The notes below the pieces were generated by a model that was not told the origin of the DNA, made no database searches, and saw only the letters and a program-made list of their open reading frames with translations. From Salinisphaera sp. LB1 (GTDB lineage Bacteria; Pseudomonadota; Gammaproteobacteria; Nevskiales; Salinisphaeraceae), in the NCBI RefSeq assembly GCF_003177035.1, contig NZ_CP029488.1, forward strand, positions 1,302,001 to 1,366,000: a stretch of DNA of 64,000 nt. The letters run 5' to 3'. A program made the position numbers and the translations under genes. This document shows, piece after piece, positions 36,197 through 54,094 of this stretch (positions are counted from its first letter, which is position 1; every line of letters starts with the position of its first letter).

Positions 36197-36209
36197 GGTT
36201 TGGAATATC

Positions 36210-36669
36210 TATCCGCAGATTTCACAGATTGTGCAGATTTTTGTATGGACCGCCGAGATCCCGAGACCTACGCAATCATTGGAGCTGCGATGGAAGTCCA
36301 TCGAACCCTCGGCAATGGCTTTTTGGAGTCGGTTTATCACGAGGCTTTGGCGATCGAGTTCGGTGAGCGCGATATACCGTTCGTGCGCGAGCCCGAGCTG
36401 ACGGTCGCTTACAAGGGGCACAGGCTTTCCTGCGCCTACCGCGCCGACTTTGTGTGTTTTGGAGATGTGATCGTAGAACTGAAGGCCCTGAGCCAGCTGT
36501 CGGGCAACGAACAGTCGCAGGTAGTCAACTATCTAAAGGCTTCGGGAATCGAAAAAGGGCTACTGCTCAATTTCGGCCGGGACAGCTTGCAGCACCGTCG
36601 CTTGATCCGGTCGAACGGTTCACCCCTCCATTCATTTTAAATCTGTGAAATCTGCGCAATCTGCGGATA
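36210..36669. mobile_element. Inverted-repeat-bounded element carrying a GxxExxY gene
   Basis: The left arm (36210-36242) reads TATCCGCAGATT followed by two NNNCAGATT units. The right arm (36639-36669) is its inverted counterpart with the same 12-bp end and two units of the same type. The 460-bp segment holds only the GxxExxY ORF and lies between the two metH ORFs. The same arms bracket gene-less 143-189-bp segments elsewhere (39445-39587, 20768-20941, 21022-21210). No target duplication was evident. Confidence 0.55.
36245..36640 (+). CDS. GxxExxY protein (PD-(D/E)XK nuclease-like)
   Basis: This small protein of 131 residues carries the name-giving motif GFLESVY in the segment [14 protein letters not shown]. 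Further on, [18 protein letters not shown] supplies the D...ExK residues of a PD-(D/E)XK nuclease core. The biochemical role of this family is not established. The ATG at 36245 (MDRRDPET) is preferred; the frame continues upstream through the repeat arm to 36200. The stop codon lies inside the right arm. It sits between the two metH ORFs, in the same direction, and does not seem related to methionine synthesis. Confidence 0.82.
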
Positions 36670-36679
36670 AAACGCTTCT

Positions 36680-39412
<2,733 letters not shown>

Positions 39413-39444
39413 GAGTGAGTTTCAAAACCCTTGTTTAAGGCCTT

Positions 39445-39587
39445 TATCCACAGATTACGCAGATTGCACAGATTGGAATAAAGAGAGCGGGCGCCGGTGC
39501 GTATCCGAATGCGGCAGCAACAACGGCAGGCATTGATGCCACGCACTGCGCCCTAATAATCTGCGAAATCCGTGTAATCTGCGGATA
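39445..39587. repeat. 143-bp gene-less inverted-repeat element after metH
   Basis: The arm TATCCACAGATTACGCAGATT with one more CAGATT unit (39445-39474) is inverted at 39558-39587, which ends TAATCTGCGGATA. About 80 bp of unique sequence lies between. It looks like a MITE-sized version of the 36.21-36.67 kb element without its gene. Confidence 0.75.
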
Positions 39588-39906
39588 GTTCTCGAAAGCG
39601 AAGTCAATAGGCCGGCCATTCGCGGCGGGCTCGCGGATTCACGTAAAGCCTTCGTATGCGATGTTCGGGCCGACTCCGTCGTCGGTGAGCGCCTCAAATC
39701 CGCTATGCCGCGAAACGATAACCGCATCGGTGCGCATCGGCGTTGATCTGCGGACTGTTTTTCTTCGCGAAAACAAAGCCCGAAAGCCTGGCGCCTGTTG
39801 CCACGGCGTGTCCGTCTTCAGGTTTTCAAATGAATTCTTAGGGCTACCGGCCTGCCGCGCGGATGGCGGGCCGTCGTTCCGTGCGCGGCTTGACGAGCCG
39901 GCTCCG
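39588..39906. other. Non-coding gap after metH
   Basis: No credible gene is seen between the repeat element and the CheW-type gene. A type-B-like fragment (GCGCATCGGCGTTGATCTGC) lies at about 39732-39751, matching a copy near 26745-26765. Long frames on both strands here are composition shadows. Confidence 0.6.
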
Positions 39907-41375
39907 TCAGACCTCGGCCTGCACGCGGGACGGCTCGGCGAGCAGCATGGCGGCCAGATCGCGCAGCCGCACCACCGACAGGAACTGCTGCTGCGCGCCC
40001 ACGCCAAGCCGGACCAGGCGTTTGCAGCCCACCAGACCGTCACCGTCGGAGCGCGGCCCGGCGCGGTGCTCGTAATACGACGCCACCGGCGCCTCGATAT
40101 AGGCGATGGCCTCGACGCTGTCCACGACAAAACCGACCGCGCCGTCATCGACGGTGACAATCAGCACCCGGCCGGCCTCGGCCGCCGCCGGGGTTCCGCG
40201 CCACAACAGGGCCCGCAAATCGGCCAGCATGACCGTGCTTCCGCCATGCACAAAGCGCGCCTGAAACGGCCCGCTCGCCGGACAGGGCATGGTGTCCGCC
40301 GGATAGGCGGTCACCGCGTCGATATCTTCCACCGCGGCCGAGAGCTTGCCCGCCGCGGTGAAATGCATATAGGCAAAACGGGTCCAGGCTTCGCCGGCGC
40401 TTACGGCATCGGCGCCGTTCACGGCCTTGGCGCGAACGGTCATGCCCTGGGCGAGCGCCGCATACGCTGCGACCGCGTCGTTGGCCGCGAGCTGCGCATG
40501 ATTGAGCAACAACAATGGGCCCAGCGCTTCGTCCTCGAGGAGTGCGGCGACATGATTGTGGAGGCGATCCGAGTCCGTGGCGGTCCGCCGCCGGGTTTCG
40601 TCGCAGGCGACAATGCCCAGCGCCTCGTCGACCGCCAGGGCCAGCCAGCCACAGTCCAGCTCGACCACAACTATCAAGGCGTGATCGCGGGTCGGCCGCG
40701 GGCGGCCGACCAGGGCGGCGGGATCGAGCAGGGCCAGCCGCCGGCCCCGCCAGTCGACGTGGCCGACGTAGGCGTGGGCGCCGATGGCCGGGTCGATCAC
40801 CGTCCCGCGACGGGTGATTTCGTGTACCACCGACAGCGGCAGCGCCACGCGCAGCTCGCCGCAGCGCAGAGCGAGCGCCCGCACCTCGCCGGCCATCGCC
40901 CGGGCCGTCGCGGGCTCGCCGCTGCCAGCCGCGGTCCCCTGCTGCACCTGTAGCAGATTCTCGAGCGCGAATACCGCGCCCAGATCCAGTACATACACCG
41001 CCTCGCCGCCGTCGCGCGCGAACATGCGGGGCACCAGCCCCGGTGCGACTGGGTCACACGGTGGCAGTCGGCGGCGGCGACCCGCAGCACTTGCCCCACC
41101 CCGTCGACCGCGAAGCCGAACACCTGGCCCTCGCGGGCGACGATGGCCACCAGGCGCCGGGCCGGCGCCTGATCGCCGCCGAGGCCCAGCAGTTGCGCGA
41201 AATCGATGACCGGCACCGGCGCGCCGCGCAGCACGAAACTGCCGAGCGACCAGGCCGGCGCCTGTGGCGCCGGCGCCAACCGTTCCGGCAACGGGACGAC
41301 CTCCTGCAACGCATCGCTGTCCAACGCGACCTCGGTCCCGGCCAGAACGAGGGTGGCCAGACTCAGCGCACTCAT
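39907..41375 (-). pseudogene. Multi-domain CheW-type chemotaxis coupling protein, frameshifted
   Basis: The gene should encode a protein of about 489 residues with two or three CheW-like domains. The first part ([20 protein letters not shown] to CHRVTQSHRG) and the rest (from LVPRMFARDGGEAVYVLDLG) are in different frames joined at a GGGG run near 41037-41041; one missing G explains the break. The break falls inside the first CheW domain, before its closing VYVLDLGAVF strand. Its ATG overlaps the chemoreceptor stop by four bases (ATGA), so the two were one operon. Whether the indel is real or an assembly error cannot be told here. Confidence 0.78.
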
Positions 41376-43116
41376 GACGCGGCTTCCGGCTGCGACTCGC
41401 GCCCGCCGCTGGCGCTATCGGTCAGCGCGCTGATGAGCTCGACCACGTGCCGCGCGGTCTCCAGCTGCGACTCCGTGGCACCGGCGATATCCTCGACCGC
41501 CTGGGTGGTCGAGACCACGCCTTCGCTGATCCGGCCGAAGGCATCGCGTGCCTTGTCGGCGACCTGCGCCCCGCTGTCGATGCGGCGCTGCGACTCGGTG
41601 ATCAGGCGATTGATCTGGCGCGTTGCCTCGGCCGATTTCTCTGCCAGTTTGCGCACTTCGTCGGCCACCACCGAAAACCCCAGCCCGTGCTCGCCGGCCC
41701 GCGCGGCCTCGATTGCCGCGTTAAAAGCCAGCAGATTGGTCTGCGAGGCGATCTCGCCGATTACACCGACAATTTCGGCGATGTCCTCCGAGGACTTGCG
41801 AATCGCCTGCATCGCCTCGGTGGAGTCGCCAATCGCCTGGGTGCCGCTTTCCGCCTGGCCGCGGGTGGCTTGCGCCTGGCCCCGCGCATCGCGGGTATTC
41901 TCGACCACCGAACGGATGCTGCCATCCAGTTGACTGATGGCGGCCGCCATGGCGTCCGACTGCTCGCCGATATGCGCTTCACGTTCGACTACCGTGGTGA
42001 TGTCGGTGGCGAACTTCACCACCTTGTAGGGCTTGCCGTCGGCATCCAGCACCGGGTTGTAGGAGGCCCGGAGCCAGACTTTCTGGCCGTGGCGGCCGAT
42101 CCGCAGGAAGCGGTCGGTAAAGAATTCGCCGCGGCCGAGCGCGTTCCAGAAATCGCGGTAGGCGGCGCTGGTGACAAACGCGGGCTCGCACAGCAGCCGA
42201 TGATGCTGACCGATCAACTCGTCGCGGCGATAGCCCATCAACGCCAGAAAATTGTCGTTGGCGGCCAGAATGCTGCCGGACAGGTCGAACTCGACCACCG
42301 ACTGCGAGCGCTCGATGGCATTGACCTTGCCCCGAAATTCGATGTTGCGGGTCCGGGATTCAGTTACATCGGTGGCGAACTTGACCACCTTGTAGGGCTG
42401 CCCGTCGGCATCGAGAACCGGATTGTAGCTGGCCTGAAACCAGACTTCGTTCCCATCCCGGCCCACCGCCGGAACTCGTCGACCATGAACTCGCCGGCCT
42501 TCAGGCGGGCCCAGAACTCGGCATAGGCGTCACTGCGCGCGTAATCCGGTTCACAGAACATGCGGTGATGGCGACCGACGACTTCATCAAGCGAATAGCC
42601 CATCGCGGCGAGAAAATGCTCGTTGGCAGTCAACACCACGCCCTCGAGATCGAACTCGGCAATCGCCTGCGAATGATCGATAGCCTTGAGCTTGCTCTCG
42701 AATTCGGCGTTGCGCAGCTTATCCGCCGTGATGTCGGTCGCGAACTTGATCACTTTCTGCACACGCCCGTCGTCGCCGAGGATCGGATTGTAGGTGGCGC
42801 GCAGCCATACCGATCGCCCGTCCCGGGCCAGACGCCTGTATTCGTTGCTGTCGTACTGACCTTTCTGGCCGAGCTTGCGCCAGAACTCGGCATACCGATG
42901 ATCGGCGGCATCCTCGGGGGTGCAGAACGGGCGGTGATGCTCGCCCACCACCGCCTCGCGCTCATAGCCCATCAAATTCAGGAAATTCGTATTGGCGTCC
43001 AGAATCCGACCATCGGGGGCGAATTCGATGATGGCCAGCGATCGATCCAGGGCATCGATCACATCGGCACGGTTATTATTTTCAACTTCTTCCGGGCTGG
43101 CGGGGCTATCCGACAT
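41372..43116 (-). pseudogene. Soluble PAS-type methyl-accepting chemotaxis protein (BdlA-like), frameshifted
   Basis: Restoring one base near 42466-42473 gives a protein of 581 residues without membrane segments: three PAS domains (each with a WLRA.YNP-type motif) and a C-terminal receptor signalling domain with [20 protein letters not shown] and [20 protein letters not shown]. This resembles soluble PAS receptors such as BdlA or Aer2, which sense redox or oxygen through bound cofactors. The frame breaks inside the second PAS domain: FRR is followed out of frame by [16 protein letters not shown]. The downstream partner is the CheW-type gene. Confidence 0.8.
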
Positions 43117-43459
43117 GATCTGGCTCCTGAAGCGGGTGCTTTTCTGATTTCACCCACAAGTTGTTACTACCGGTCATAACGGCAAGAGTTTTTTTGCTTA
43201 ATAGTTGAAGGCAATATGATTGAGCATTGCCCACTCGGCACCGCGCGCCGGGGCACGCCCAACGCATCGCCCGGGCACATGCTCGCGAATGGCGAGTCCG
43301 GAAAAATCAGGGACCTAGCGAATTCCGGGAGAATCGGGAAACGAGGCGGCGAACTCACAAGCCGGCGGGTTCCGGCGCGACCGGCGCCCATCGGCGGTCA
43401 GCGCGGCCCGGTCATCCGACGCGCCCGCCGCTTCCGCCCGCGGATCGCCGCGCAACGTG
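43117..43459. other. Gap upstream of the chemoreceptor
   Basis: About 340 bp with an AT-rich patch next to the receptor start (TTTTTTTGCTTAATAGTTGA near 43190-43209), plausible for its promoter. The GC-rich remainder has one frame (43216-43485) without similarity to any family recognised here. No repeat or RNA gene was found. Confidence 0.5.
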
Positions 43460-43831
43460 CTAGTCGTGGTTCGGCGACAGCGTGATGACGTGTTTTGCCG
43501 GCGTATTCGCGGAGCCGGCGAACGGCAGGTGGAACAGGCCGCCGATCTCGCCCGCGATCACGATCGTCACCAGCAGCGCCACGATGGGTACCAGGGTCGC
43601 CAGCACCAGCTCGCGCCAGGTGAGCGCGCTGTTGCCGGTCGCACGCCGCGCGAACACATGCACGATGTAGAGCAGATTACCGGCCAGTGACAGCCCGACC
43701 GTCACCCAGAAATCCAGCGGCGGACTGACGCTGTAGGCCAGCGAACAGGCCACCAGCGCCGCCGCCATGCCCACCAGGCCGGCCCCCTCGCAGATCCAGT
43801 CGATGAGGTTCAATTGACGTGTCGTGGACAT
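43460..43831 (-). CDS. Small membrane protein of unknown function (intact copy)
   Basis: This 123-residue protein has three hydrophobic segments (about 17-35, 40-60 and 75-97) and a short polar tail ending SPNHD. The family is not recognised. Nearly the whole gene from the ATG to codon about 106 is duplicated at 51.13-51.45 kb. This left copy has the natural C-terminus, while the right copy ends in a different short tail. It was originally the neighbour of the MATE gene. Confidence 0.65.
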   Translation of the reverse strand: MSTTRQLNLIDWICEGAGLVGMAAALVACSLAYSVSPPLDFWVTVGLSLAGNLLYIVHVFARRATGNSALTWRELVLATLVPIVALLVTIVIAGEIGGLFHLPFAGSANTPAKHVITLSPNHD

Positions 43832-44171
43832 GGCGTGATCAGGTCAAGCCGCCGAATGGCGGCGCCATGATAGCGCGGGGCGCCCGCAGGGCCGAACGGC
43901 GCGCGCGTCAGGCCCCGCCAACCGCCCACGCGCCGGAATGCGTCCGCCACACCGTCGCCACCAGCCTGGCGAGCAGGAATACGGTCAACAGCCCCCAGCC
44001 GAAGACATAGGACAGCCAGATCAGCGGCAGGAAGCCGAGCAGTGCCGCGCCCAGCGTCGTGGTCCGCAGAAAAGCCGTATCGCTGGTGAACACATCCGGC
44101 CGCACCGGGTAAGCCGCCGCAAACACGCCACCCAACACAATGCCCAGCCCCAGCGAATAGCCGGTGATGCA
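43514..44171. repeat. Left direct repeat flanking the rhodopsin island (658 bp)
   Basis: The segment corresponds base for base to 51133-51916. Two gaps account for the whole length difference: an 18-bp gap (right copy about 51607-51624) and a 108-bp gap (between the GCGGTATCGC copies at 51711 and 51819). The central part (about 43620-43900) is almost identical, whereas the outer parts carry scattered substitutions. The repeat contains most of the small membrane gene and the 3' part of the MATE gene. Confidence 0.9.
43908..44171 (-). pseudogene. 3' remnant of the MATE efflux gene
   Basis: The frame matches the last part of the intact MATE protein encoded at 51527-52837 (ITGYSLALGIALGGVFAAAY and FLPLIWLSYVFGWGL) but lacks the first three quarters. 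It also has two in-frame deletions of 36 and 6 codons. The similarity stops at 44171, where island sequence begins. It cannot encode a functional transporter. Confidence 0.85.
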
Positions 44172-44313
44172 CATGAACGATTTCGTCGGCCTGGGCGCAA
44201 CAGTGATCACGTCATTTTGATCGTACCGCCCGGATGAGCCGAAACTCGATAGGCGCTTCACACGACGTCTTTGGTGCGAATGCCATCCCAAAACGACGGG
44301 GCCGATCAACTGG

Positions 44314-45174
44314 TCATTCGGCCGAGCGCAGTCGTATCAGACGGTCGACCAGCAGCATATGCGGAACGGTTAAGCAAGCGAGCGTCACGAAGACCAAGCG
44401 CATCAGGGTGGTGTCGAGGTCGACGTGTTGCGCGAGGAAGAACCCCGTGGCTATCAGGCAAGCGAGCAAGATTGCGGTAGTCGGCAAAAGCGCGGCCCGC
44501 ACGCCGGCGGCTGTCGACAAGCCGAGAGTGTGTACGACGCTGCGAAAATGACGTGGGGAATGTAAGCCACAAAAATAAACGGCGAAATGGACCAGTGGTG
44601 GGAGCAGGATTGCAGAGGCGGCCAGTGCGATCCATTCTGTCCGGACAGTAGTGCTTTGCCGATACCCGGCCAGGAGGGCGAGCGGTATGGCGATCCAGCC
44701 CACGACGGCCACACCTCTGGCCACCATGTCGGCCACGGGCGCCGGCACTAGAAAAGCAAACAGGGCCGCAACCTGTTCCGGATGCGTAGCGACCGGAAGC
44801 GCGACCGCGAGCAACCCGCCAGCGATAGCGCCCCGGCCTTTCTCCGAGGTGGTCCAGTCATCCGAGAAATGGAGCGCCGAATACGCGAGGAACGCTGCGA
44901 GGGCGAAGCCCGGCGCGATCAGCCAGAGGCTCAGCATCATGGCAGCGGCCCCCAGATAAATAGCCACGAACCGCGCGGCGGCTTTCATGTTGGAGAGCGG
45001 AAAGAGTGCCCGCGCGATCTCGAAATCGAGCGCACCGTGCGGCAATCCGAGAACCGCAATGATCGGCGCCAGCAGCAATAGTTGCGTTGCTGTCGGCAAA
45101 GACGCGAGTTCCAGCAATGAGATCACCCCGACCACCATTGCCAGGAAAACAATCGTGTGTCGCGACCCGTTCAT
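44314..45174 (-). CDS. blh: Beta-carotene 15,15'-dioxygenase, Brp/Blh family
   Basis: Blh cleaves beta-carotene into two molecules of retinal, the chromophore of the rhodopsin encoded in the same cluster. The 286-residue membrane protein has GLPHGALDFEIA, YSALHFSDDW and VYFCGLHSPRHF, the histidine-bearing segments thought to bind iron. The ATG at 45174 overlaps the crtY stop by four bases (ATGA); a longer frame exists but only reads through crtY. It is the last gene of the operon. Confidence 0.93.
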   Translation of the reverse strand: MNGSRHTIVFLAMVVGVISLLELASLPTATQLLLLAPIIAVLGLPHGALDFEIARALFPLSNMKAAARFVAIYLGAAAMMLSLWLIAPGFALAAFLAYSALHFSDDWTTSEKGRGAIAGGLLAVALPVATHPEQVAALFAFLVPAPVADMVARGVAVVGWIAIPLALLAGYRQSTTVRTEWIALAASAILLPPLVHFAVYFCGLHSPRHFRSVVHTLGLSTAAGVRAALLPTTAILLACLIATGFFLAQHVDLDTTLMRLVFVTLACLTVPHMLLVDRLIRLRSAE

Positions 45175-46298
45175 GACGAGCGTAGCGCCGAGCGCAGAAA
45201 GAAGGCCGGCGGCAGCGATGCAATCACCGAAAGCCGGTCGGCGGCCGCAACGGAGCCCGCGAGAAACCGCTCCAGCCGTTCGGGCGGCGCGTTGGCGAAA
45301 AGAGCATGGAAAAACTCGGGGCCTCGTTCCGGGGCTGATTGGATGACTCGCAGGAAAAGACGATCGAGGACGCGGGTGATGGCGCCGTCCAGCCGCGGAT
45401 CGAGCCATGGCGTGTCGCTGGAACTTTGGATCTGCGCAGCGAGCCTGTCGGACATCCGCTGAATGCGTTGGAAGGCATAGCCGGTGCTAGGCCGCGCCGC
45501 ACCGCCCCCCAAGCCGATACGGGCATAGCCTTGGCTCGGCCCCTTGGCGACGCCGTACCCTGCCTGCATCGGCAATGCGCCTGCCTCTTCTCGCAGCACC
45601 GCTGTCGTCGCTCCGTCCGATAGTCTGTCGCACTCTTCGGCGAGCCACGTTTTCAGCCATTCACTTGACGGCCTTGCCGAACCGAACCGGGTCACTTCGA
45701 CCAGGGCACGGTCCGAGGCGAAGGGAAGCACGTAAACGAAATCTATGCCGCCGGCATGCGGCGGGCGAAAATGCATGAGCCCGACGGTCGTCGGATCGAA
45801 GCGAGCGCGGTCGGTGTGGATCTCTACCCCACGGAAGAATTGGCCGTAGTTCGGCGGTATCCGGGGCGGGCGCGCGTCTATGAGGGTTCGAGTGGTCAGG
45901 CGACCGCGCGAAGTTTCCACGGCCCAGGCGCCGGCATGTCCGGTGGTATCCGTCGCGGTGGTGCCAAGCCACAGATGCACGTTCTTGCCGTCCTCGCAGC
46001 ACCTCAGCGCGGTTTCGTAGAATGCCGACGAGGAAATGGCGACGTAAGGCATATCGGTCGCGCCGCGGATTGTGATCGCGCCATGGCGGCTCACAAGCCA
46101 CCGGTCCCAGCGTTTGCGGATGCACCCATCAAACGGATGGGAAGCGGTGTGCCAATGACACCATGTGCGATCTTCGATATAGCGGGATCGTGTCTCCACA
46201 ATACCCACTCTCGAACGACCGCCCGAGAGTCGACAAGCGAGGCTAAGGCCGGCGCAGCCGCCGCCGAGAATTAATATGTCCAGGTCGGGATCCGGCAT
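45171..46298 (-). CDS. crtY: Lycopene beta-cyclase
   Basis: CrtY closes both ends of lycopene to give beta-carotene. The 375-residue flavoprotein starts with the dinucleotide fold LDILILGGGCAGLSLACRL and has DRTWCHW and GLGGGAARPSTGYAFQRI, typical of the CrtY/CrtL family. Its start overlaps the crtB end by 56 bp and its stop overlaps blh by ATGA, so translation is coupled along the operon. Confidence 0.93.
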   Translation of the reverse strand: MPDPDLDILILGGGCAGLSLACRLSGGRSRVGIVETRSRYIEDRTWCHWHTASHPFDGCIRKRWDRWLVSRHGAITIRGATDMPYVAISSSAFYETALRCCEDGKNVHLWLGTTATDTTGHAGAWAVETSRGRLTTRTLIDARPPRIPPNYGQFFRGVEIHTDRARFDPTTVGLMHFRPPHAGGIDFVYVLPFASDRALVEVTRFGSARPSSEWLKTWLAEECDRLSDGATTAVLREEAGALPMQAGYGVAKGPSQGYARIGLGGGAARPSTGYAFQRIQRMSDRLAAQIQSSSDTPWLDPRLDGAITRVLDRLFLRVIQSAPERGPEFFHALFANAPPERLERFLAGSVAAADRLSVIASLPPAFFLRSALRSS

Positions 46299-47145
46299 GA
46301 GGGTACTCCGCGGTTACAGCCCCGGCCGGGCGGAAGAGTGAGATGAGAGCGCGGCATGCGACCACGACCTTGGTGCCAAGCGGAACATGCACACGGCGAT
46401 CGAGGGCGAGATCGCCACGCCCGCCTAGCTGCCGGCCGATCGCTCGGTAAAGAGCGGCCGCCACCATGACGGTGACCCTGACTCGCAGCGGTAGTACGGG
46501 CAGGCCCGACAGTCCGTGGGAATAATGCCGCTCCGCCAGTGCAAGCGTCCTGTGGATCGCTGCCCTGACTTCGGCCCTGCCGGCCGGCGATGCATCGACT
46601 AATTCCGCGGGGGATGCCGGCAACCAAGTGGCGGGCAGGTAGCGTCGACCGGCGCGCGCGTCCTCTCCCACGTCGCGGACGATATTGGTGAGCTGCATGG
46701 CAATGCCGAGTGAGGCAGCACGTGCGCGGGCCTCGGCGGCCCGGATGCCGTAGAGATCACAGAACAGCAGCCCCACCGTTCCAGCAACGTGCCAAGCGTA
46801 ATCGAGCAGTTCAGTATCGTCCTTGATTTGCACCCCGGTGGTGTCCTGCAGCACTCGGGCTGTCAGATCCGCCAGAGTAGCCCGGCTTTGAGAGTCCCCA
46901 GCAAAAAGTTTGTCTGCTTCAACGACCAGCGGATCAGTCACTACCGTAGTGCCACGAAGTTCGGCTTCGATTCGAGCGAGACGCTGTGCGGCGGCCCGGC
47001 TGCCGTCGCGATCGGCAAGATCATCGAGGGTCCGGCAGATCGCATAAAGCCGCGCGATGCGCTCGCGGTCCGCGCGTGGCAAAAGTCGGGTTGCCGGCGC
47101 GAAGCTGCGCGCGTGCTGGGTAAAGATGCGTTCGGCGTCGCTCAC
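46243..47145 (-). CDS. crtB: Phytoene synthase
   Basis: CrtB condenses two geranylgeranyl diphosphates to phytoene. The 300-residue protein contains the first aspartate-rich segment RTLDDLADRD and the second, QLTNIVRDVGEDARAGRRYL, both needed for magnesium-diphosphate binding. The start overlaps the crtI stop by four bases, and its 3' end overlaps crtY by 56 bp. Gene order is the usual one for carotenoid clusters tied to rhodopsin. Confidence 0.94.
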   Translation of the reverse strand: MSDAERIFTQHARSFAPATRLLPRADRERIARLYAICRTLDDLADRDGSRAAAQRLARIEAELRGTTVVTDPLVVEADKLFAGDSQSRATLADLTARVLQDTTGVQIKDDTELLDYAWHVAGTVGLLFCDLYGIRAAEARARAASLGIAMQLTNIVRDVGEDARAGRRYLPATWLPASPAELVDASPAGRAEVRAAIHRTLALAERHYSHGLSGLPVLPLRVRVTVMVAAALYRAIGRQLGGRGDLALDRRVHVPLGTKVVVACRALISLFRPAGAVTAEYPHAGSRPGHINSRRRLRRP

Positions 47146-48680
47146 GACGTCGGCGCCAGATCGGGCACCAGCGAACCAATCACTTTAGCCGAGCTGATGA
47201 CGCCGGGCACGCCGCCCCCCGGATGGGTGCCCGCGCCTACGAGGTAGAGGCCGCGAACCCCTTCCCCACGGTTGTGGTAGCGAAACCAGGCCGATTGCGT
47301 AAAAAACGGCGAAAGCGAAAAGCCGGCGCCCGCCTCCGACAAATAATCTGTTTCGAAATCGTCCGGCGTCTTGGCGAATTCCGCACAGATCGTATCCCGC
47401 AGCCCGGGCAGGATCGTAGCGTCAAGCGCGGCGACGATACGATCGCGCAGGCGCGGTCCCTCCACCGACCAATCGATTCCGGCGCGCTGGTTGGGTACCG
47501 GGCACAAGACATAGAAGCTGTCGCACCCTGGCGGCGCGAAAGTCGGGTCGGTCGCGGTCGGACGATGAAGATAGAGTGAAAAATCTTCGGCGAGGACGCC
47601 GCGGTGGAAGATATCGGACAGGAGCTCACGGTGGCGGCTGCCGAACCATACCGTATGATGCGCGACGTCCGGCCATTGCCGGCGGGCCCCGAAATACAGC
47701 ACGTATAGTCCCATCGATAGGCGCGCTGTGCGGTTACGCAAGCGCGCCGTCAGCCCGGCTGTACCGGGTGGAAGCAGGTCACGATAAAGACGCACGGGAT
47801 CGGTGTTGGCGATAACCACGTCGGCGGCCGAGACCGAGCCATCAGCGCGGATGACCCCAGTCACACGGCCGTTAACCACACTGACACGCTCGATTGTGGT
47901 GCCGGTTTCCACGGCGATCCCGACCTCCTGCATCAGCCGGTGCAATGCATCGACCAGAGCACCCGTGCCACCCATGGCGAACCAGACGCCGTAGGCGCGC
48001 TCAAGATGATTGATCATTGCGTAAATCGACGTGGTATCGAAGGGGTTACCGCCGAGAAGAAGAGGCTGAATGGAGAACGCCCGGCGCAGCCGGTCATCCT
48101 TGAGGTGCCGTGAGACCATGTCCCACACGCTGTCGTAACTGCGCAGACGCAGCAGAGCCGGCACTTGACGCAACATGAACAACGGATTGTGGAACGGCTT
48201 GTGCGCCAAGCCGGTGAAGGCAACATCGTAGATCGCGCGGCTTGCGTCGCCCAGACGGCGGTAGCCGTCGACGTCAGTCGGACTGAGGCGAGCAATCTCG
48301 GCCTCGGTCGCCCCCTCCGTTGGCCCGTATTTCAGCGTTTCGCCATCGGCGAAGCGGAAGGCATACCAGGGATCGGGGGCGACCAGCGTGACGTAGTCGG
48401 CCAGTCGTTTATCAAAGAGCGCGAACAATTCCTCGAATAGTTGGGGCGCGGTCAGGACGGTTGGGCCGGCGTCATAACGAAATCCGTCGCGTTCGAAGAC
48501 CTGAGCGCGCCCACCTAGGCGGGCACAACGGTCGATTAGCCGAACTGCGTAGCCCTTGGCACGCAAGCGAAGGGCGGCGGCGATACCGCCGAAGCCGCCG
48601 CCCACCACGATCGCCTGATTGCCAGATCGAGTAGCGACCGACGCGGAAACGAAATGATCCTTTGCCCGATCACGCAGCAT
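47142..48680 (-). CDS. crtI: Phytoene desaturase (CrtI type)
   Basis: CrtI introduces four double bonds into phytoene to make lycopene. The 512-residue flavoenzyme has the N-terminal FAD fold AIVVGGGFGGIAAALRLRAK, the RYDAGPTVLT segment and the C-terminal GLYLVGAGTHPGGGVPGV, hallmark regions of bacterial CrtI. Its ATG overlaps the end of crtE by about 11 bp. It is part of the rhodopsin operon. Confidence 0.95.
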   Translation of the reverse strand: MLRDRAKDHFVSASVATRSGNQAIVVGGGFGGIAAALRLRAKGYAVRLIDRCARLGGRAQVFERDGFRYDAGPTVLTAPQLFEELFALFDKRLADYVTLVAPDPWYAFRFADGETLKYGPTEGATEAEIARLSPTDVDGYRRLGDASRAIYDVAFTGLAHKPFHNPLFMLRQVPALLRLRSYDSVWDMVSRHLKDDRLRRAFSIQPLLLGGNPFDTTSIYAMINHLERAYGVWFAMGGTGALVDALHRLMQEVGIAVETGTTIERVSVVNGRVTGVIRADGSVSAADVVIANTDPVRLYRDLLPPGTAGLTARLRNRTARLSMGLYVLYFGARRQWPDVAHHTVWFGSRHRELLSDIFHRGVLAEDFSLYLHRPTATDPTFAPPGCDSFYVLCPVPNQRAGIDWSVEGPRLRDRIVAALDATILPGLRDTICAEFAKTPDDFETDYLSEAGAGFSLSPFFTQSAWFRYHNRGEGVRGLYLVGAGTHPGGGVPGVISSAKVIGSLVPDLAPTS

Positions 48681-49551
48681 CAGCAGTTTGCCTTAGCGGG
48701 CGCGCGAGATGTTGCGCCGCCTCTGCGAGTGCACCGCCAGCGCCGGCAGGGAGCGCGGCTGCCAACGCTTGCGCTGCTTCGCAGTGTTCGACGGCTCTCA
48801 AACGACAAGCAATAATGGCCTTGGATTGACTCAGCTGGCGGGCACGTGCAATTACGAACACGGCATTAAGACGTTCTGCGCGACCGGGTCGTGCCGCGTC
48901 GTCATCAACGTCTGCGATATCATCACGCATCTGATATCCGATAGCGAAACGACGACCGGCGTCGTAAGCACCCGCAATGGCGTCGGAGTATCCCGCTGCG
49001 GCAAGGGGGGCGGCGAGTGCCAAGGAGATGAGAGCGCCGGACTTCTGCCGCGCTATCTGCTCGTAATGTTCCAGGTTCCACACCGGCAGATGGCAGGCAG
49101 CACGGTCGGCCGCCTGTCCGGTAATGGTCTCGGCAACGGCGGCATGCAGCTGACCGCAAGCGTTCGGAGAACCGCTGGCAGCAAGCGCCGCATGCGCGGC
49201 GGATAGGAAGAAATCACCTAGCATGAGAGCCGTGTCTTCGCCGTGGGCTCGCCAGACAGCGATGCTCCCTCGCCGGGTCGAGTCGCGATCCTGTAGGTCG
49301 TCATGCACCAGGGCTGCGTTGTGCACCAGTTCGCAGGCCGCCGCGATAGACGACCTAGGGGCAGGATCCAGGCCAAGCGCTTCTCCCGCTGCCAAGGCAA
49401 CCTTGGCTCGCAGCCGACCACCGCCGGCCTTGAGGTGCGCGCGTCCGGCGGCTGCAACATCCGCCGGCAGCGAACCCAACATCGCATCGATTATGGCATC
49501 CACTTTGGCGGTACTCACCGCGCGTTCGGATGTCTCGGTAATTTCCGACAT
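48670..49551 (-). CDS. crtE: Geranylgeranyl diphosphate synthase (polyprenyl synthetase)
   Basis: CrtE makes the C20 precursor for carotenoid synthesis. The protein of about 293 residues has the first aspartate-rich motif in ALVHDDLQDRDSTRRG and the second in GYQMRDDIADVDDD. ATG at 49551 (MSEITE) is used; an upstream in-frame ATG at 49566 adds only five residues. Located between the rhodopsin gene (69 bp away) and crtI, it provides the pathway entry. Confidence 0.92.
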   Translation of the reverse strand: MSEITETSERAVSTAKVDAIIDAMLGSLPADVAAAGRAHLKAGGGRLRAKVALAAGEALGLDPAPRSSIAAACELVHNAALVHDDLQDRDSTRRGSIAVWRAHGEDTALMLGDFFLSAAHAALAASGSPNACGQLHAAVAETITGQAADRAACHLPVWNLEHYEQIARQKSGALISLALAAPLAAAGYSDAIAGAYDAGRRFAIGYQMRDDIADVDDDAARPGRAERLNAVFVIARARQLSQSKAIIACRLRAVEHCEAAQALAAALPAGAGGALAEAAQHLARPLRQTADAA

Positions 49552-49620
49552 GTCAGATCCACGCAAGCTGTGACGGGAACGCGGGTCTCACGGCTGCGCC
49601 CCGAGACCCGCCTGGCTAGG

Positions 49621-50397
49621 TTACCCGGCGGCGGCGGGCTGAGTTCCGCCAGACCGCATCTCCGCCTCGGACTTCCGGACAGCAATCATGTAGATCAGTA
49701 CGCCGAACGCAGCCTTAGCGAGCAGATCAGCAATGGTGTACCCAATCTGAATGATGGTGGTTGCCGTTGCCCCGTCCAGGCCGACGGCGCCGACGAAATA
49801 TACGACCGGATAGAAGAACCAGACATACACGGTCAGGTTACGCGCCGTCGTGACCAGTCCGCGTGCATCATCCGGCTGCTTCGAGATCGCATCACCCAGT
49901 CCGGAGTAGAGCTCGTAGACGATCCAAAGGAACGGCAGCATGGACAGAATCCCGAAGATCCAACGTGTCGACGTCGCCGACGCCACTTCACCGGGATAGC
50001 CCAACACAATCATAAGCACGGCAAGAACGCTGAGGCGCGTAGCCCGCGAGATCGTTTCCTCACGTGGCAACCGCATCACCAAAATGAGCTCGACCAGTAA
50101 CAACGGCACCGTGGCGACCCAGTCGGCATAGCGGAACATGCCGTTGAATGCCACGCCGGTGGCTTTGACGGTCCCGTCAGCAACTTGATACGCGCCTTCC
50201 CAGCTTTGAAACATGCGGAAGTAGTTGTACGCGGCAATTAACGTCACGAGACCTGTGATGGTAATGGTTGCACGGAAATTAGGCGTGACCTGGCCTCGAT
50301 TAATCCAGAAAAAGGCTGTCGCAGCAGCCATAAGCGAGAAACAGAACGAAAACGAAATACCAACCAGGTGAAACTGACCTACCGACATGGATGTCAT
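49621..50397 (-). CDS. Light-driven proton-pumping rhodopsin, xanthorhodopsin-like
   Basis: This 258-residue seven-helix protein has the proton-pump triad in RYADWVATVPLLLVE: acceptor Asp92, Thr96 and donor Glu103. Leu100 sits at the spectral-tuning site, which favours green absorption. Lys228 in IADLLAKAAFGVLIY is the retinal Schiff-base lysine. GYPGE, QIGY and AKAAFGVLI resemble the xanthorhodopsin/Gloeobacter clade, and Gly149 occupies the position of the carotenoid fenestration in that clade. Residue 58 is Asn in AAYNYFRMF, where relatives usually have His. It is the first gene of the cluster with a strong ribosome binding site. Confidence 0.95.
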   Translation of the reverse strand: MTSMSVGQFHLVGISFSFCFSLMAAATAFFWINRGQVTPNFRATITITGLVTLIAAYNYFRMFQSWEGAYQVADGTVKATGVAFNGMFRYADWVATVPLLLVELILVMRLPREETISRATRLSVLAVLMIVLGYPGEVASATSTRWIFGILSMLPFLWIVYELYSGLGDAISKQPDDARGLVTTARNLTVYVWFFYPVVYFVGAVGLDGATATTIIQIGYTIADLLAKAAFGVLIYMIAVRKSEAEMRSGGTQPAAAG

Positions 50398-50401
50398 GAA
50401 A

Positions 50402-50409
50402 TCCTCCTT
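50402..50409 (-). promoter_or_regulatory. Strong Shine-Dalgarno site of the rhodopsin gene
   Basis: Read on the minus strand, AAGGAGGA lies four bases before the ATG at 50397. It is a near-perfect match to the 16S tail and stands out from the weak or overlapping starts of the following crt genes, in keeping with high rhodopsin output. Confidence 0.8.
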
Positions 50410-50809
50410 CTTTATTATGCGTTTGCATGTGCAAGGAGCGAATCGAGCGGCAGTAGCAGCTGAATTCTCTCAGTAGTATTACGTAAGCTGCGTCGAAACG
50501 GTTGCGCGAGTCTGTGAGCAATTCCGGTTATGTTGCGGTGATCGCAGTTGAAGCAGCATGTGTTAGGCCGCACGAATAAAATCGATATAATTCCGATTTC
50601 CAAAAATCGCTCAACGGATGCTCCGCAGCCGAGTAATCACGGCTCGTCAAACGAGTGTGCCCTGCGCCTAGGCCCGACTCGGTCATCGGTCAAAGCCGGC
50701 CACGACGAGCGGGTGATGGTGGCGGTGTATGAGACCAACGACGCGGCGGTGATCGATAGCGGTCGCGACCGATGCCTAGGCGCTTCTACAATGCCCCCAA
50801 ACCGTCAAG

Positions 50810-50851
50810 AAACGGCTCGGGCTGAATCTGGGCTACGAGCCGGAAGCCTAG
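50810..50851 (+). pseudogene. 3' fossil of a second metH gene
   Basis: The frame [13 protein letters not shown] followed by TAG matches the very end of MetH in this window ([13 protein letters not shown], stop at 39412). Most base differences are synonymous, as expected for a relative's metH rather than a copy of this one. Only about 14 codons are convincing. A terminator hairpin follows. Confidence 0.55.
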
Positions 50852-50876
50852 CCCGAGTCTCGACTCGGCTTTATCG

Positions 50877-50900
50877 AGCCCGCCGTGCGAGGCGGGCTTT
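50877..50900 (+). terminator. Hairpin terminator after the metH fossil
   Basis: The stem AGCCCGCC / GGCGGGCT with a 6-base loop (GTGCGA) is followed by TTTC. Orientation suits termination of the rightward metH-like fossil. Confidence 0.65.
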
Positions 50901-51111
50901 CGGGCCGTATCGCACTGACGTGTGAGCACCGCATTGTGGCCTCGAAGCGTGGCCGGCATCGCGCGAACCGTTCATCGGATGGATCGTGGATCAGGGACAA
51001 CGCCGCTCGTCGGATTTTCCGGGGCTATCCCCCGGCATCGGGGCAACCACGCACGGAAGCGAAACGCGCGCAGGCGTGGCTAACTCGAACGCTTGTTCGA
51101 CGACAGCCTGA

Positions 51112-51450
51112 TCAAATGCCTCTACGGTCCGCGCCGGCGAACGGCAGGTGGAACAGGCCGCCGATCTCGCCCGCGATCACGATCGTCACCAAAAGCGCCA
51201 CGATGGGTACGAGGGTCGCCAGTACAAGCTCGCGCCAGGTGAGCGCGCTGTTGCCGGTCGCACGCCGCGCGAACACATGCACGATGTAGAGCAGATTACC
51301 GGCCAGTGACAGCCCGACCGTCACCCAGAAATCCAGCGGCGGACTGACGCTGTAGGCCAGCGAACAGGCCACCAGCGCCGCCGCCATGCCCACCAGGCCG
51401 GCCCCCTCGCAGATCCAGTCGATGAGGTTCAATTGACGTGTCGTGGACAC
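51112..51450 (-). pseudogene. Truncated copy of the small membrane gene (right repeat)
   Basis: From the ATG at 51450 through codon about 106 it matches the gene at 43460-43831 almost perfectly. Then the frame leaves the repeat at 51133 and ends with the unrelated tail ADRRGI. It lacks the natural C-terminus. It may still be translated, but it is best seen as the by-product of the duplication that brackets the island. Confidence 0.75.
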
Positions 51451-51916
51451 GGCGTGATCAGGTCAAGCCGCCGAATGGCGGCGCCATGATAGCGCGGGGC
51501 GCCCGCAGGGCCGAACGGCGCGCGCCTCAAGCCCCGCCGACCGCCCAGACGCCGGAATGCGTCCGCCACACCGTCGCCACCAGCCTGGCGAGCAGGAACA
51601 CGGTCAGCCCGGTCCAGATACCGAACAGCCCCCAGCCGAAGACGTAGGACAGCCAGATCAACGGCAGGAAGCCGAGCAGTGCCGCGCCCAGCGTCGTGGT
51701 CCGCAGGAAGGCGGTATCGCCGGCCCCGAGCAGCACCCCGTCGAGCGCAAATACAATGCCGGCCACCGGCTGCTGGACCACGAACAGCCACCAGGCATAG
51801 GGAATCTGGGCCAGCACGGCGGTATCGCTGGTGAACACATGCGGCAGCACCGGGTAAGCCGCCGCAAACACGCCGCCCAGCGCAATGCCGAGCGCCAGCG
51901 AATAGCCGGTGATGCG
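51133..51916. repeat. Right direct repeat flanking the rhodopsin island (784 bp)
   Basis: This is the counterpart of 43514-44171. It keeps the 18-bp and 108-bp segments that the left copy lost. The repeat merges on its right into the remaining 5' part of the intact MATE gene. Recombination between the two copies would remove the island and leave an intact small membrane gene next to an intact MATE gene. Confidence 0.9.
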
Positions 51917-52837
51917 CCCGGCCACGCGCTGGGCGTCGGCCGTGCGGTCGCCGCCCAGCGCCGCGCCGATCAGGGCCTGGGCGGCAATCGCCAGCGAGTC
52001 GAGGATCAACGACAGGAACGACCACAGTTCGTAGACGATCTGGTGTGCGCCGGCGGCCGCGGCGGAATGGCGCGCCGCCACCGCCGCCGCGGACAGAAAA
52101 CAGATCTGGAACGAGGCGCTGCGCAGAATCAGGTCGCGCCCCAGCACCATCTGGGCGCGCATGACCGCCAGGCGCGGCCGGCGCATCGCGCGCTCGCGCA
52201 GCAACGCCATCACGAAAAGCACCGCGGCGATGGTCTGGGCCAGCACATTGGCGATCGCCGAACCCGCCAGCCCGAGACCGACCGGATAGACCAGGATCGG
52301 GCAGGCGATGCCCGAGGCGATATTGGCCGCAAGCACGTAGCGCAGCGGCCGCACCGTATCCTGCACGCCGCGCATCCAGCCGTTGCCGGCCAGCGTGATC
52401 AGGATCGCCGGCGCACCGAGCAGCGCAATGCGCAGCCATTCGGCCGCGGCATTGGCGATCGGCGCCCGGCCGGCCAACAGCCGGGCCAGGTCGCGGGCAA
52501 AGATCTCGCCGAGCACCAACACCAGTACTCCCACCGCAATCGCCAGCCAGGTCGCCTGCCCACCCTCGGCCACGGCGTCGGCGCGCCGCCCGGCACCATA
52601 GAGCCGGGATGTCCGCGCCGTAGTGCCGTAGGACAAAAACGTCAACTGGCTGGTCAAGACACTCAGCAGGGTGCCGCCGAGCGCGAGACCGGCCAGCGGC
52701 ACCGCGCCGAGATGGCCCACCACGGCGGTATCGATCAGCACGTAAAGCGGCTCGGCCGCCAGCACGCCGAGCGCGGGCAGCGCGAGCGCGAGGATGCGGC
52801 GCAGCGTGACATCGGTATCGGCGTTCGGTTGAGCCAT
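51527..52837 (-). CDS. MATE/DinF-family efflux transporter
   Basis: This 436-residue protein with about twelve membrane segments has LALPALGVLAAEPLYVLIDT and VGHLGAVPLAGLALG at the N-terminus, typical of DinF-type members of the MATE family, which export drugs or organic cations against H+ or Na+. ATG 52837 (MAQPNADT) is chosen; the longer frame is not conserved. The last quarter of the gene is duplicated at 43.9-44.2 kb. It is divergent from the AI-2E-type permease gene. Confidence 0.9.
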   Translation of the reverse strand: MAQPNADTDVTLRRILALALPALGVLAAEPLYVLIDTAVVGHLGAVPLAGLALGGTLLSVLTSQLTFLSYGTTARTSRLYGAGRRADAVAEGGQATWLAIAVGVLVLVLGEIFARDLARLLAGRAPIANAAAEWLRIALLGAPAILITLAGNGWMRGVQDTVRPLRYVLAANIASGIACPILVYPVGLGLAGSAIANVLAQTIAAVLFVMALLRERAMRRPRLAVMRAQMVLGRDLILRSASFQICFLSAAAVAARHSAAAAGAHQIVYELWSFLSLILDSLAIAAQALIGAALGGDRTADAQRVAGRITGYSLALGIALGGVFAAAYPVLPHVFTSDTAVLAQIPYAWWLFVVQQPVAGIVFALDGVLLGAGDTAFLRTTTLGAALLGFLPLIWLSYVFGWGLFGIWTGLTVFLLARLVATVWRTHSGVWAVGGA

Positions 52838-52957
52838 GACGAACAACGCGTCGAAGCAGCCGTGCAGTGTGCCACAGCCGGTTCGTAACGCCGCCTCGGC
52901 AGTTGCCCGGATGACCCGGACGTGGCCGCCGCGCGATGATAGCCTGACAGTGCAACG

Positions 52958-54094
52958 ATGCGAGTGGCTGCTGGCATGGCCGACAACACCACGGAACCGA
53001 CCGCGATGAGCCGTTCGCGGCGTGAGACCCGGGATCTGCGCGATTTCTGGCGCCGCTGCCTGATCGTGGCGGCGACCGCCATCGGCAGTATCGCCCTGCT
53101 CTGGTTCCTGTGGACGGTCGGCCACGCCGTGCTTCTGATTTTTTCGGCGTTTCTGGTTGCGGTCGCGCTAGACGCTCTGGCGCGCATGGTGTCGAAAGTC
53201 ACCGGACTGGCCCGCCATTCGGCGGTGATCGCGGTGCTTACGATCATGGCGCTGCTGGCCGGGGCGGCCACCACGCTCGGCACCATGAACGTCGCCTCAC
53301 AGGCGCCGCGGCTGCAGAACCAGATCGCGCAGTCGATCGATGAACTCCAGGCCAAGCTGCAGCATTATCAGATCGCGGCGCATCTGTTCGGTCAATCGCA
53401 CAGCAGCGCCAGCGGCTCCGGCTCCGGCAATTCACTGGGCGAGCAGCTCACCAGTGAGCTATCGAGCGCGCTGTCGGTGACCATCACCTCGCTGACCGAT
53501 CTGTTCGTGGTACTGATCATCGGCATTTATCTGGCGCTCAGACCCAAGCTCTACTACAGCGGGCTGTTGCGGCTGTTTCCGCCGACGCGCCAGACCCGGG
53601 CCCACATGATCGCTCACGAGGCCACCGACGCCGTGCGGCGCTGGCTGACCGGGCGGGCCATCTCGATGAGTCTGGTCGGGCTCGGCAGCCTTGCCGGGCT
53701 GTGGGCGATCGGTATTCCGTTCCCCATGTCGCTGGCGTTGCTGGCCGGCCTGCTCACCTTCATTCCGTACCTCGGCGCGCTGGTATCGGCGATTCCGGCG
53801 CTGCTGATCGCCGGCATGCACGGCATCTGGCCGATGTTTTACGTCGGCGCGCTGTACCTGGCGCTGCACATCATCGAAGGCTATCTGCTCGCCCCGCTGA
53901 TCCAGCGCCGTGCGGCCTCGATCGCACCGGCCTTTTTATTGTCGGTACAGGTGCTGGGCGGGGCGGCTGCCGGCGTGCTGGGCATCGCGCTGGCGACACC
54001 GATCGCGCTGGTGATCGCGGTGATCATCCAGCTCAGCTATGTCCAGGACGTGATCGGCGAAGAGCCGCATCTGCCGGGTAATACGTCCGGCTAA
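52958..54094 (+). CDS. AI-2E family transporter (PerM-like membrane protein)
   Basis: This 378-residue protein has paired hydrophobic helices at the N-terminus, a central soluble stretch of about 70 residues rich in Gln/Ser, and a C-terminal membrane region with FIPYLGALVSAIPALLIAG and HIIEGYLLAPLIQRRA, the conserved block of the AI-2E/PerM family. Members move small molecules or ions; the substrate is not predictable. Starts at 52958 or 52976 (MADNTTEP) are possible. It converges with the YihY gene. Confidence 0.88.
   Translation: MRVAAGMADNTTEPTAMSRSRRETRDLRDFWRRCLIVAATAIGSIALLWFLWTVGHAVLLIFSAFLVAVALDALARMVSKVTGLARHSAVIAVLTIMALLAGAATTLGTMNVASQAPRLQNQIAQSIDELQAKLQHYQIAAHLFGQSHSSASGSGSGNSLGEQLTSELSSALSVTITSLTDLFVVLIIGIYLALRPKLYYSGLLRLFPPTRQTRAHMIAHEATDAVRRWLTGRAISMSLVGLGSLAGLWAIGIPFPMSLALLAGLLTFIPYLGALVSAIPALLIAGMHGIWPMFYVGALYLALHIIEGYLLAPLIQRRAASIAPAFLLSVQVLGGAAAGVLGIALATPIALVIAVIIQLSYVQDVIGEEPHLPGNTSG

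Follow-up and report, generated by a model that had tools for sequence, protein, structure and literature searches.

How does a rhodopsin operon enter the chromosome of a heterotrophic bacterium? Such operons have a patchy distribution among bacteria, which is attributed to lateral spread, and to our knowledge their entry into chromosomes is seldom visible. A stretch of 64,000 nucleotides from Salinisphaera sp. LB1 (contig NZ_CP029488.1, positions 1,302,001 to 1,366,000; hereafter the window, with coordinates counted from its first base) raises this question, as it carries a xanthorhodopsin operon between two direct copies of a chromosomal segment made up of parts of a small membrane gene and of a MATE transporter gene. 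A preliminary description, made from the sequence alone, had proposed that the operon came in on circular DNA by a single crossover. Our analysis favors, with a probability of roughly 0.55, entry of the operon into a variable interval bordered by metH and MATE through recombination anchored on one side, in the small-gene/MATE segment. The locus looks like a well-preserved scar, left when phototrophy was gained laterally, and its history is both older and more complex than first read.

The operon and the direct repeats that border it

The operon and the two repeat copies are laid out as follows:

43514..44169, left direct-repeat copy; within it, 43608-43906 differs from the right copy at 1/299 positions
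44306..50409, minus strand, rhodopsin/retinal cassette, collinear with that of a relative from a different genus of the same family (G016) at 74.5% nucleotide identity
44314..45174, minus strand, blh, beta-carotene 15,15'-dioxygenase (listed open reading frame to 45408; start inferred from G016)
45171..46298, minus strand, crtY lycopene cyclase (Pfam scan)
46243..47145, minus strand, crtB phytoene synthase (Pfam scan)
47142..48680, minus strand, crtI phytoene desaturase (Pfam scan)
48670..49566, minus strand, crtE polyprenyl synthase (Pfam scan)
49621..50397, minus strand, xanthorhodopsin-type rhodopsin (Asp/Thr/Glu and the retinal Lys aligned to 3ddl)
51133..51915, right direct-repeat copy (repeat comparison)

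The insert is thus bordered by direct copies of a chromosomal segment, the arrangement that an insertion-duplication leaves, and the bracketing of blh-crtY-crtB-crtI-crtE-rhodopsin given in the preliminary description is confirmed. The island had been delimited there as 44172-51132; the six genes do lie inside these limits, but the cassette proper is confined to 44306-50409 by the G016 alignment, and the remainder between the repeats comprises a dehydrogenase gene tail, a metH tail and further stretches.

The genome itself (G000) is a single contig of 4,141,708 bases. The two repeat copies differ at 24 of 656 aligned positions and by deletions of 18 bp and 108 bp (BLASTN identity of 94% over 588 aligned columns and 92% over 97). 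Mismatches are distributed very unevenly, with 5/94 in 43514-43607 (the 3′ part of the small gene), 1/299 in 43608-43906 and 18/263 in 43907-44169, gaps excluded (middle against the rest, Fisher p = 9.0e-6), and the longest perfect run is 223 bp (43608-43830). This is the pattern of a conversion tract between differing ends, as expected of a crossover between alleles, and a later conversion looks alike. As far as the alignment can tell, the mosaic would fit a crossover with conversion between two diverged alleles.

The differences are also biased in kind. Inside the repeat, 16 of 22 differing codons are synonymous (5/6 in the small gene and 11/16 in MATE; the count omits two codons, one beyond the repeat and one bordering a gap), compared with about 30% for random change (p = 4.4e-5). 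When the nearest congener (G006) is used as the outgroup, with a site beyond the repeat and another beside a gap again excluded, the 18 MATE differences divide into 8 that match the right copy, 8 that match the left and 2 that match neither, a split that would fit a single decaying copy less well (p = 0.017) than two alleles, each of which was functional for some time.

Gene remnants at the repeat ends

Several gene pieces lie at the ends of the repeats:

43460..43831, minus strand, small membrane gene, left copy, intact (123 amino acids, no Pfam family)
43907..44169, minus strand, 3′ fragment of MATE from which 18 bp and 108 bp are missing, both in frame (copy alignment)
44162..44245, plus strand, 3′ tail of an alcohol dehydrogenase-like gene, 87% identical to the genome's own copy at G000:827421-827504
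50799..50850, plus strand, 3′ tail of a metH gene, 41/52 identical to the genome's own metH and 42/51 to that of G006
51079..51450, minus strand, small membrane gene, right copy (starts with GTG; after 5 synonymous differences the 3′ end is diverged, and a deletion of 7 bp shifts the frame)

On the left, the small gene is intact and MATE is truncated, as first described; the copy ends inside MATE, keeping about 260 bp of its 3′ end. There it meets the tail of a gene that, judging by its sequence, we take to be alcohol dehydrogenase-like, and the join has only TGATG in common. On the right, the metH tail sits about 230 bases further left than the stop of the small-gene remnant. It scores 49 against the resident metH (shuffle maximum 30) and 57 against that of G006 (shuffle maximum 32), with 86% identity over 42 bases to G001 and 85% over 40 bases to G009.

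Next to this tail, the 390 bp upstream of the rhodopsin gene (50410-50798) are GC-poor (55.0%), and nothing convincing matched them in 17 family genomes. A match of 50693-50732 to G000:1542143 was considered as another fragment and dropped, being short and GC-rich, with gaps.

The single-copy locus in relatives

A close MATE orthologue is present in 12 of the 14 genus genomes (G011 and G012 have only distant ones), and the small membrane gene in five. In G006, contig C29 starts with part of an MFS gene, followed by the small gene, MCP, the CheW-like gene and metH, and the end of contig C14 carries the AI-2E transporter, MATE and the other MFS part. Together, these give a single-copy order metH-CheW-MCP-small-MFS-MATE-AI2E, with one join inferred across the contig break, and relative to it the arrangement in the window is derived. 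The ends of C14 and C29 have in common a 31-base inverted end (30 identical), and what looks like an insertion sequence-like element may interrupt the MFS gene at both contig breaks (L089 end, L107 start). Relatives without the island had been expected to carry one uninterrupted small-gene/MATE locus; the single copies and the order agree with this in G006, but an MFS gene stands in between.

The MFS gene is missing from both repeat copies of the window, which argues that it was lost before the duplication and that both copies derive from one MFS-less locus. None of the four congeners with the small gene showed a small-gene/MATE junction without MFS (the two genes are on separate contigs in G001, G009 and G013), and the exact empty site was accordingly not seen. 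Since this junction is found in both copies and is unseen in these congeners, the probable origin of at least the homology arm is the same lineage or a close sister.

The operon is foreign to the genus as far as sampled

The window rhodopsin is found in the LB1 genome alone among 14 genus genomes and in none of the 13 congeners, three of which are less than 90% complete. At the level of the order, 2 of 85 genomes match it at E <= 1e-40, LB1 and G016. The operon genes have GC contents at third codon positions of 0.60-0.71, compared with mostly 0.73-0.88, and one of 0.63, for genes outside the operon at 32-60 kb. Judged by this sampling, the operon appears foreign to the genus. G003 and G007 carry a different rhodopsin-like gene (L038 and L037, respectively), with 28-29% identity to that of the window.

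The gene order rhodopsin-crtE-crtI-crtB-crtY-blh (minus strand) is the same in G016, and it recurs in all 19 of 50 genome-contig loci at which the six genes were found. Phylogenies built from 51 rhodopsins and from 33 CrtI proteins pair the window sequences with those of G016 at 100/100, among mostly alphaproteobacterial sequences; the G016 rhodopsin branch is flagged as long. Protein identity between the two operons is 86% for CrtI, 78% for CrtE, 74% for CrtB, 73% for CrtY, 69% for rhodopsin and 68% for Blh, and between the same two genomes GyrB is 70% identical (707 aligned positions) and ParE 65%. These values hint that the operon may have been shared after the genera split, and different constraint could also explain them. 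G016 shows none of the window's flanks as far as its contig reaches.

The best solved match of the rhodopsin is 3ddl (E 4.7e-63). Its aligned Asp, Thr, Glu and Lys are what we take to be the proton-pump residues, and the protein is predicted to be a light-driven proton pump. A Gly is aligned at the position of xanthorhodopsin Gly156. In xanthorhodopsin, this glycine makes room for a carotenoid antenna. This Gly is kept here even though neither a ketolase nor a hydroxylase gene is among the six genes of the operon, to which the check was confined. The role of Gly156 is taken up in a passage of the report on the Salinivibrio xanthorhodopsin cluster (PMC4094778).

A model for entry of the operon

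We propose that the incoming DNA carried the operon together with a diverged small-gene/MATE allele and a metH tail. A homologous crossover, presumably RecA dependent, would have taken place inside the small-gene/MATE segment between the resident and the incoming allele, and the far end would have been joined without homology; equivalently, the DNA may have circularized and integrated by one crossover. Integration would duplicate the small-gene/MATE segment on both sides of the insert. Afterward, deletions of 18 and 108 bp would have shortened the spare MATE piece, and the redundant copy of the small gene would have acquired a frameshift. The 223-bp perfect repeat might still be able to excise the island; no sign was found that the island moves today. 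From one genome, a circle, a one-sided linear integration and a later conversion are indistinguishable. The single crossover of a circle, as first proposed, agrees with the repeat geometry, the near-identical core between diverged ends, the synonymous excess, the single copies in G006 and the lack of an integrase or transposase among the proteins scanned, but it does not account for the small-gene remnant, the metH tail and the unrelated tail at the other junction.

A number of observations weigh against entry by one-sided recombination, in its simple form or altogether. The right small gene, which the preliminary description had as truncated beside an intact MATE, is not cut at 51133; MATE is indeed intact, but the last ~54 bp of the small gene persist, diverged, to a stop near 51079. 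The alignment of this remnant scores 34, a value reached by none of 2000 letter shuffles (0/2000; shuffle maximum 30), and in one frame, after the 7-base deletion, the remnant reads RHLIRLSSN, compared with KHVITLSPN in the intact copy. The right join falls within homologous small-gene sequence, with an additional join at the metH tail. With the metH and dehydrogenase tails, the joins outnumber those to be expected from a single crossover and a single end-joining; either the incoming DNA was already composite or more than one event took place. The synonymous excess weakens if the working copy is assumed to have drifted at synonymous sites itself: with 46% expected, by our estimate, p is 0.010 for all 22 codons and 0.057 for MATE alone. 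Furthermore, a majority vote of 11 congeners at the 18 MATE sites assigns 12 to the right copy and 6 to the left, which is well explained by decay of one spare copy (p = 0.22), and the identical core could stem from later gene conversion between the copies. The genome encodes ComEC, yet 12 of the 14 control genomes also give a match in the same search, 5 of them above the cut-off, so that it says little about competence. Neither a circle nor a donor nor an empty site in a conspecific turned up in the single assembly of the species and the relatives compared. The event is old.

Alternative explanations

The duplication could instead have arisen in situ, the metH-to-MATE interval being doubled by illegitimate joining between sister chromosomes, with the operon caught at the junction, the CheW and MCP genes then lost from the right copy and the core produced by later conversion. 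The order on the right side, metH tail-small-MATE, does echo the resident metH-CheW-MCP-small-MATE, the scant common sequence at the left join would suit illegitimate joining, and the 12 to 6 polarization by the congener majority is what decay of a spare copy would give. However, the metH tail is only 79% identical to the resident gene (41/52), compared with ~93% between the MATE copies (p = 8e-4), it is no closer to the resident than to congeners (the genomes being separated by one or two bases), and the differences between the repeat copies are biased to synonymous sites. On balance, we consider a tandem duplication unlikely. A simple in-situ duplication of the resident metH tail, for which ~93% identity would be expected, was rejected on the same comparison, and decay of so short a piece leaves this less than certain.

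Alternatively, a related strain could already have had the whole structure and passed it on by a double crossover in the flanks, the mosaic then marking the boundary between donor and resident sequence. The content of the metH-MATE interval varies between species, as expected if alleles are exchanged via the flanks. Such an allelic transfer leaves the origin of the duplication unexplained, and the rhodopsin occurs in none of the 13 other genus genomes; we therefore regard it as rather improbable.

A mobile element with an unrecognized recombinase and long terminal direct repeats is highly improbable: direct repeats do border the insert, but they are chromosomal genes with single-copy counterparts in relatives, the cassette has six pathway genes only, and G016 is without these flanks along its contig. 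Neither an integrase nor a transposase is found among 30 Pfam-scanned proteins (of 61 open reading frames picked), in agreement with the preliminary description, the 64-kb window contains no tRNA, and no tRNA target or terminal inverted repeats were found; an island borne by an integrase, an insertion sequence or a tRNA site was accordingly rejected. Rfam gave nothing in 39300-54000, and a scan for promoters and terminators was uninformative.

An assembly artefact, that is, a false duplication of ~700 bp, which had been named at the outset as what would overturn the proposal, has very little to recommend it: there is one assembly only, but the copies differ at 24/656 positions and by the 18-bp and 108-bp deletions, with a third indel in the diverged tail, and the genome is in one contig.

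Relation to known systems

The process is known from the laboratory, and the locus described here is a natural example of it with a phototrophy cassette. In the relevant passages of a study of Escherichia coli, in which incoming DNA re-circularized and integrated by a single crossover, 56 of 60 Lac− recombinants gave a duplication PCR product and 14 sequenced recombinants had a partial duplication of 109-950 bp (Amarir-Bouhram et al., 2011; PMC3240628). As in the products described there, integration in the window lies beside a partial duplication of the homologous locus, of similar size. Those experiments used laboratory plasmids with designed homology; the event in the window is natural and old, its homology arm is diverged and additional gene tails lie at its joins. 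Homology-facilitated illegitimate recombination (HFIR) in naturally competent bacteria, in the account given by the same paper, resembles our model in having homology at one end and illegitimate joining at the other; however, its product as described there deletes recipient DNA, whereas here recipient DNA is duplicated.

Transformation can also duplicate chromosome segments, as in the Streptococcus pneumoniae merodiploids treated in part of Johnston et al. (2013; PMC3784515). The likeness lies in a tandem duplication formed when incoming DNA bridges two chromosome copies. The duplications modeled in that part are ~100-900 kb in size and arise between existing repeats, unlike the one in the window, although one small duplication, of 3,276 bp, is given that lacks flanking repeats. 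The Salinivibrio cluster likewise combines rhodopsin, crt and blh genes in an unusual host, with possible horizontal transfer; the passages on it describe no duplicated flanks, and its rhodopsin has Trp at the Gly156 position, where the window has Gly (PMC4094778). Proteorhodopsin in other strains is the subject of passages in PMC11165706. A literature search combining rhodopsin, direct repeats and single crossover found no paper.

The metH-MATE interval and neighboring genes

The interval into which the operon appears to have entered is defined by the following genes:

36680..39412, plus strand, metH (methionine synthase), the conserved left border of the variable interval (NCBIfam metH; matched in 15/17 family genomes)
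39907..43116, minus strand, CheW-like gene and PAS/MCP chemotaxis receptor (CheW named from its translation, unscanned)
51527..53125, minus strand, MATE efflux transporter, intact (limits of the open reading frame; the true start is probably near residue 97-100, where congener matches begin)
52958..54094, plus strand, AI-2E family transporter, near MATE in several congeners too

metH and MATE are on one contig in 6 of 14 genus genomes, with their relative orientation kept. The distance between them is 1.1 kb in G004, 5.8 kb in G005 and G007, 13.0 kb in G008, 22.6 kb in G002 and ~12 kb in LB1; in G001 they are on different long contigs, and in G003, G006, G009, G010 and G013 on separate contigs. 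The interval holds one open reading frame in G004 and fourteen picked open reading frames in G002, which, by eye from their translations, look like a purine-related catabolic cluster. As the contents differ among genomes, the operon landed where content already varies.

The CheW-like and MCP genes, each one frame in G006, are split in the window by one base (near 41040 and 42465), so that they are either decaying genes or carry sequencing indels. A PDDEXK_3 nuclease-family gene (36200-36640) lies between an S-methyltransferase gene and metH, and a similar sequence occupies the corresponding position in G006 (L107 8049-8408).

No clear second case emerged when the other metH-MATE intervals were searched for additional pieces of metH, MATE or the small gene; several scores lay above a single shuffled control, for instance those of metH (41 vs 30, G007), MATE (47 vs 25, G003) and the small gene (46 vs 28, G015). 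It is conceivable, but we think it doubtful, that genes are captured at this interval throughout the genus, its cargo (chemotaxis genes, transporters, the catabolic cluster, the phototrophy operon) being swapped without an integrase via homologous recombination in the border genes, and that the rhodopsin island has not become stable and can pop out as a circle through the 223-bp perfect repeat. If so, an excised circle could bring phototrophy to cells with the same border genes.

Implications for the gain of phototrophy

At this locus the joins are still readable, in the duplicated anchor segment, the diverged allele and the gene tails at the ends. What they point to, as one way for a heterotroph to acquire light-driven energy, is homology-anchored capture of ordinary DNA rather than the work of a dedicated mobile element.

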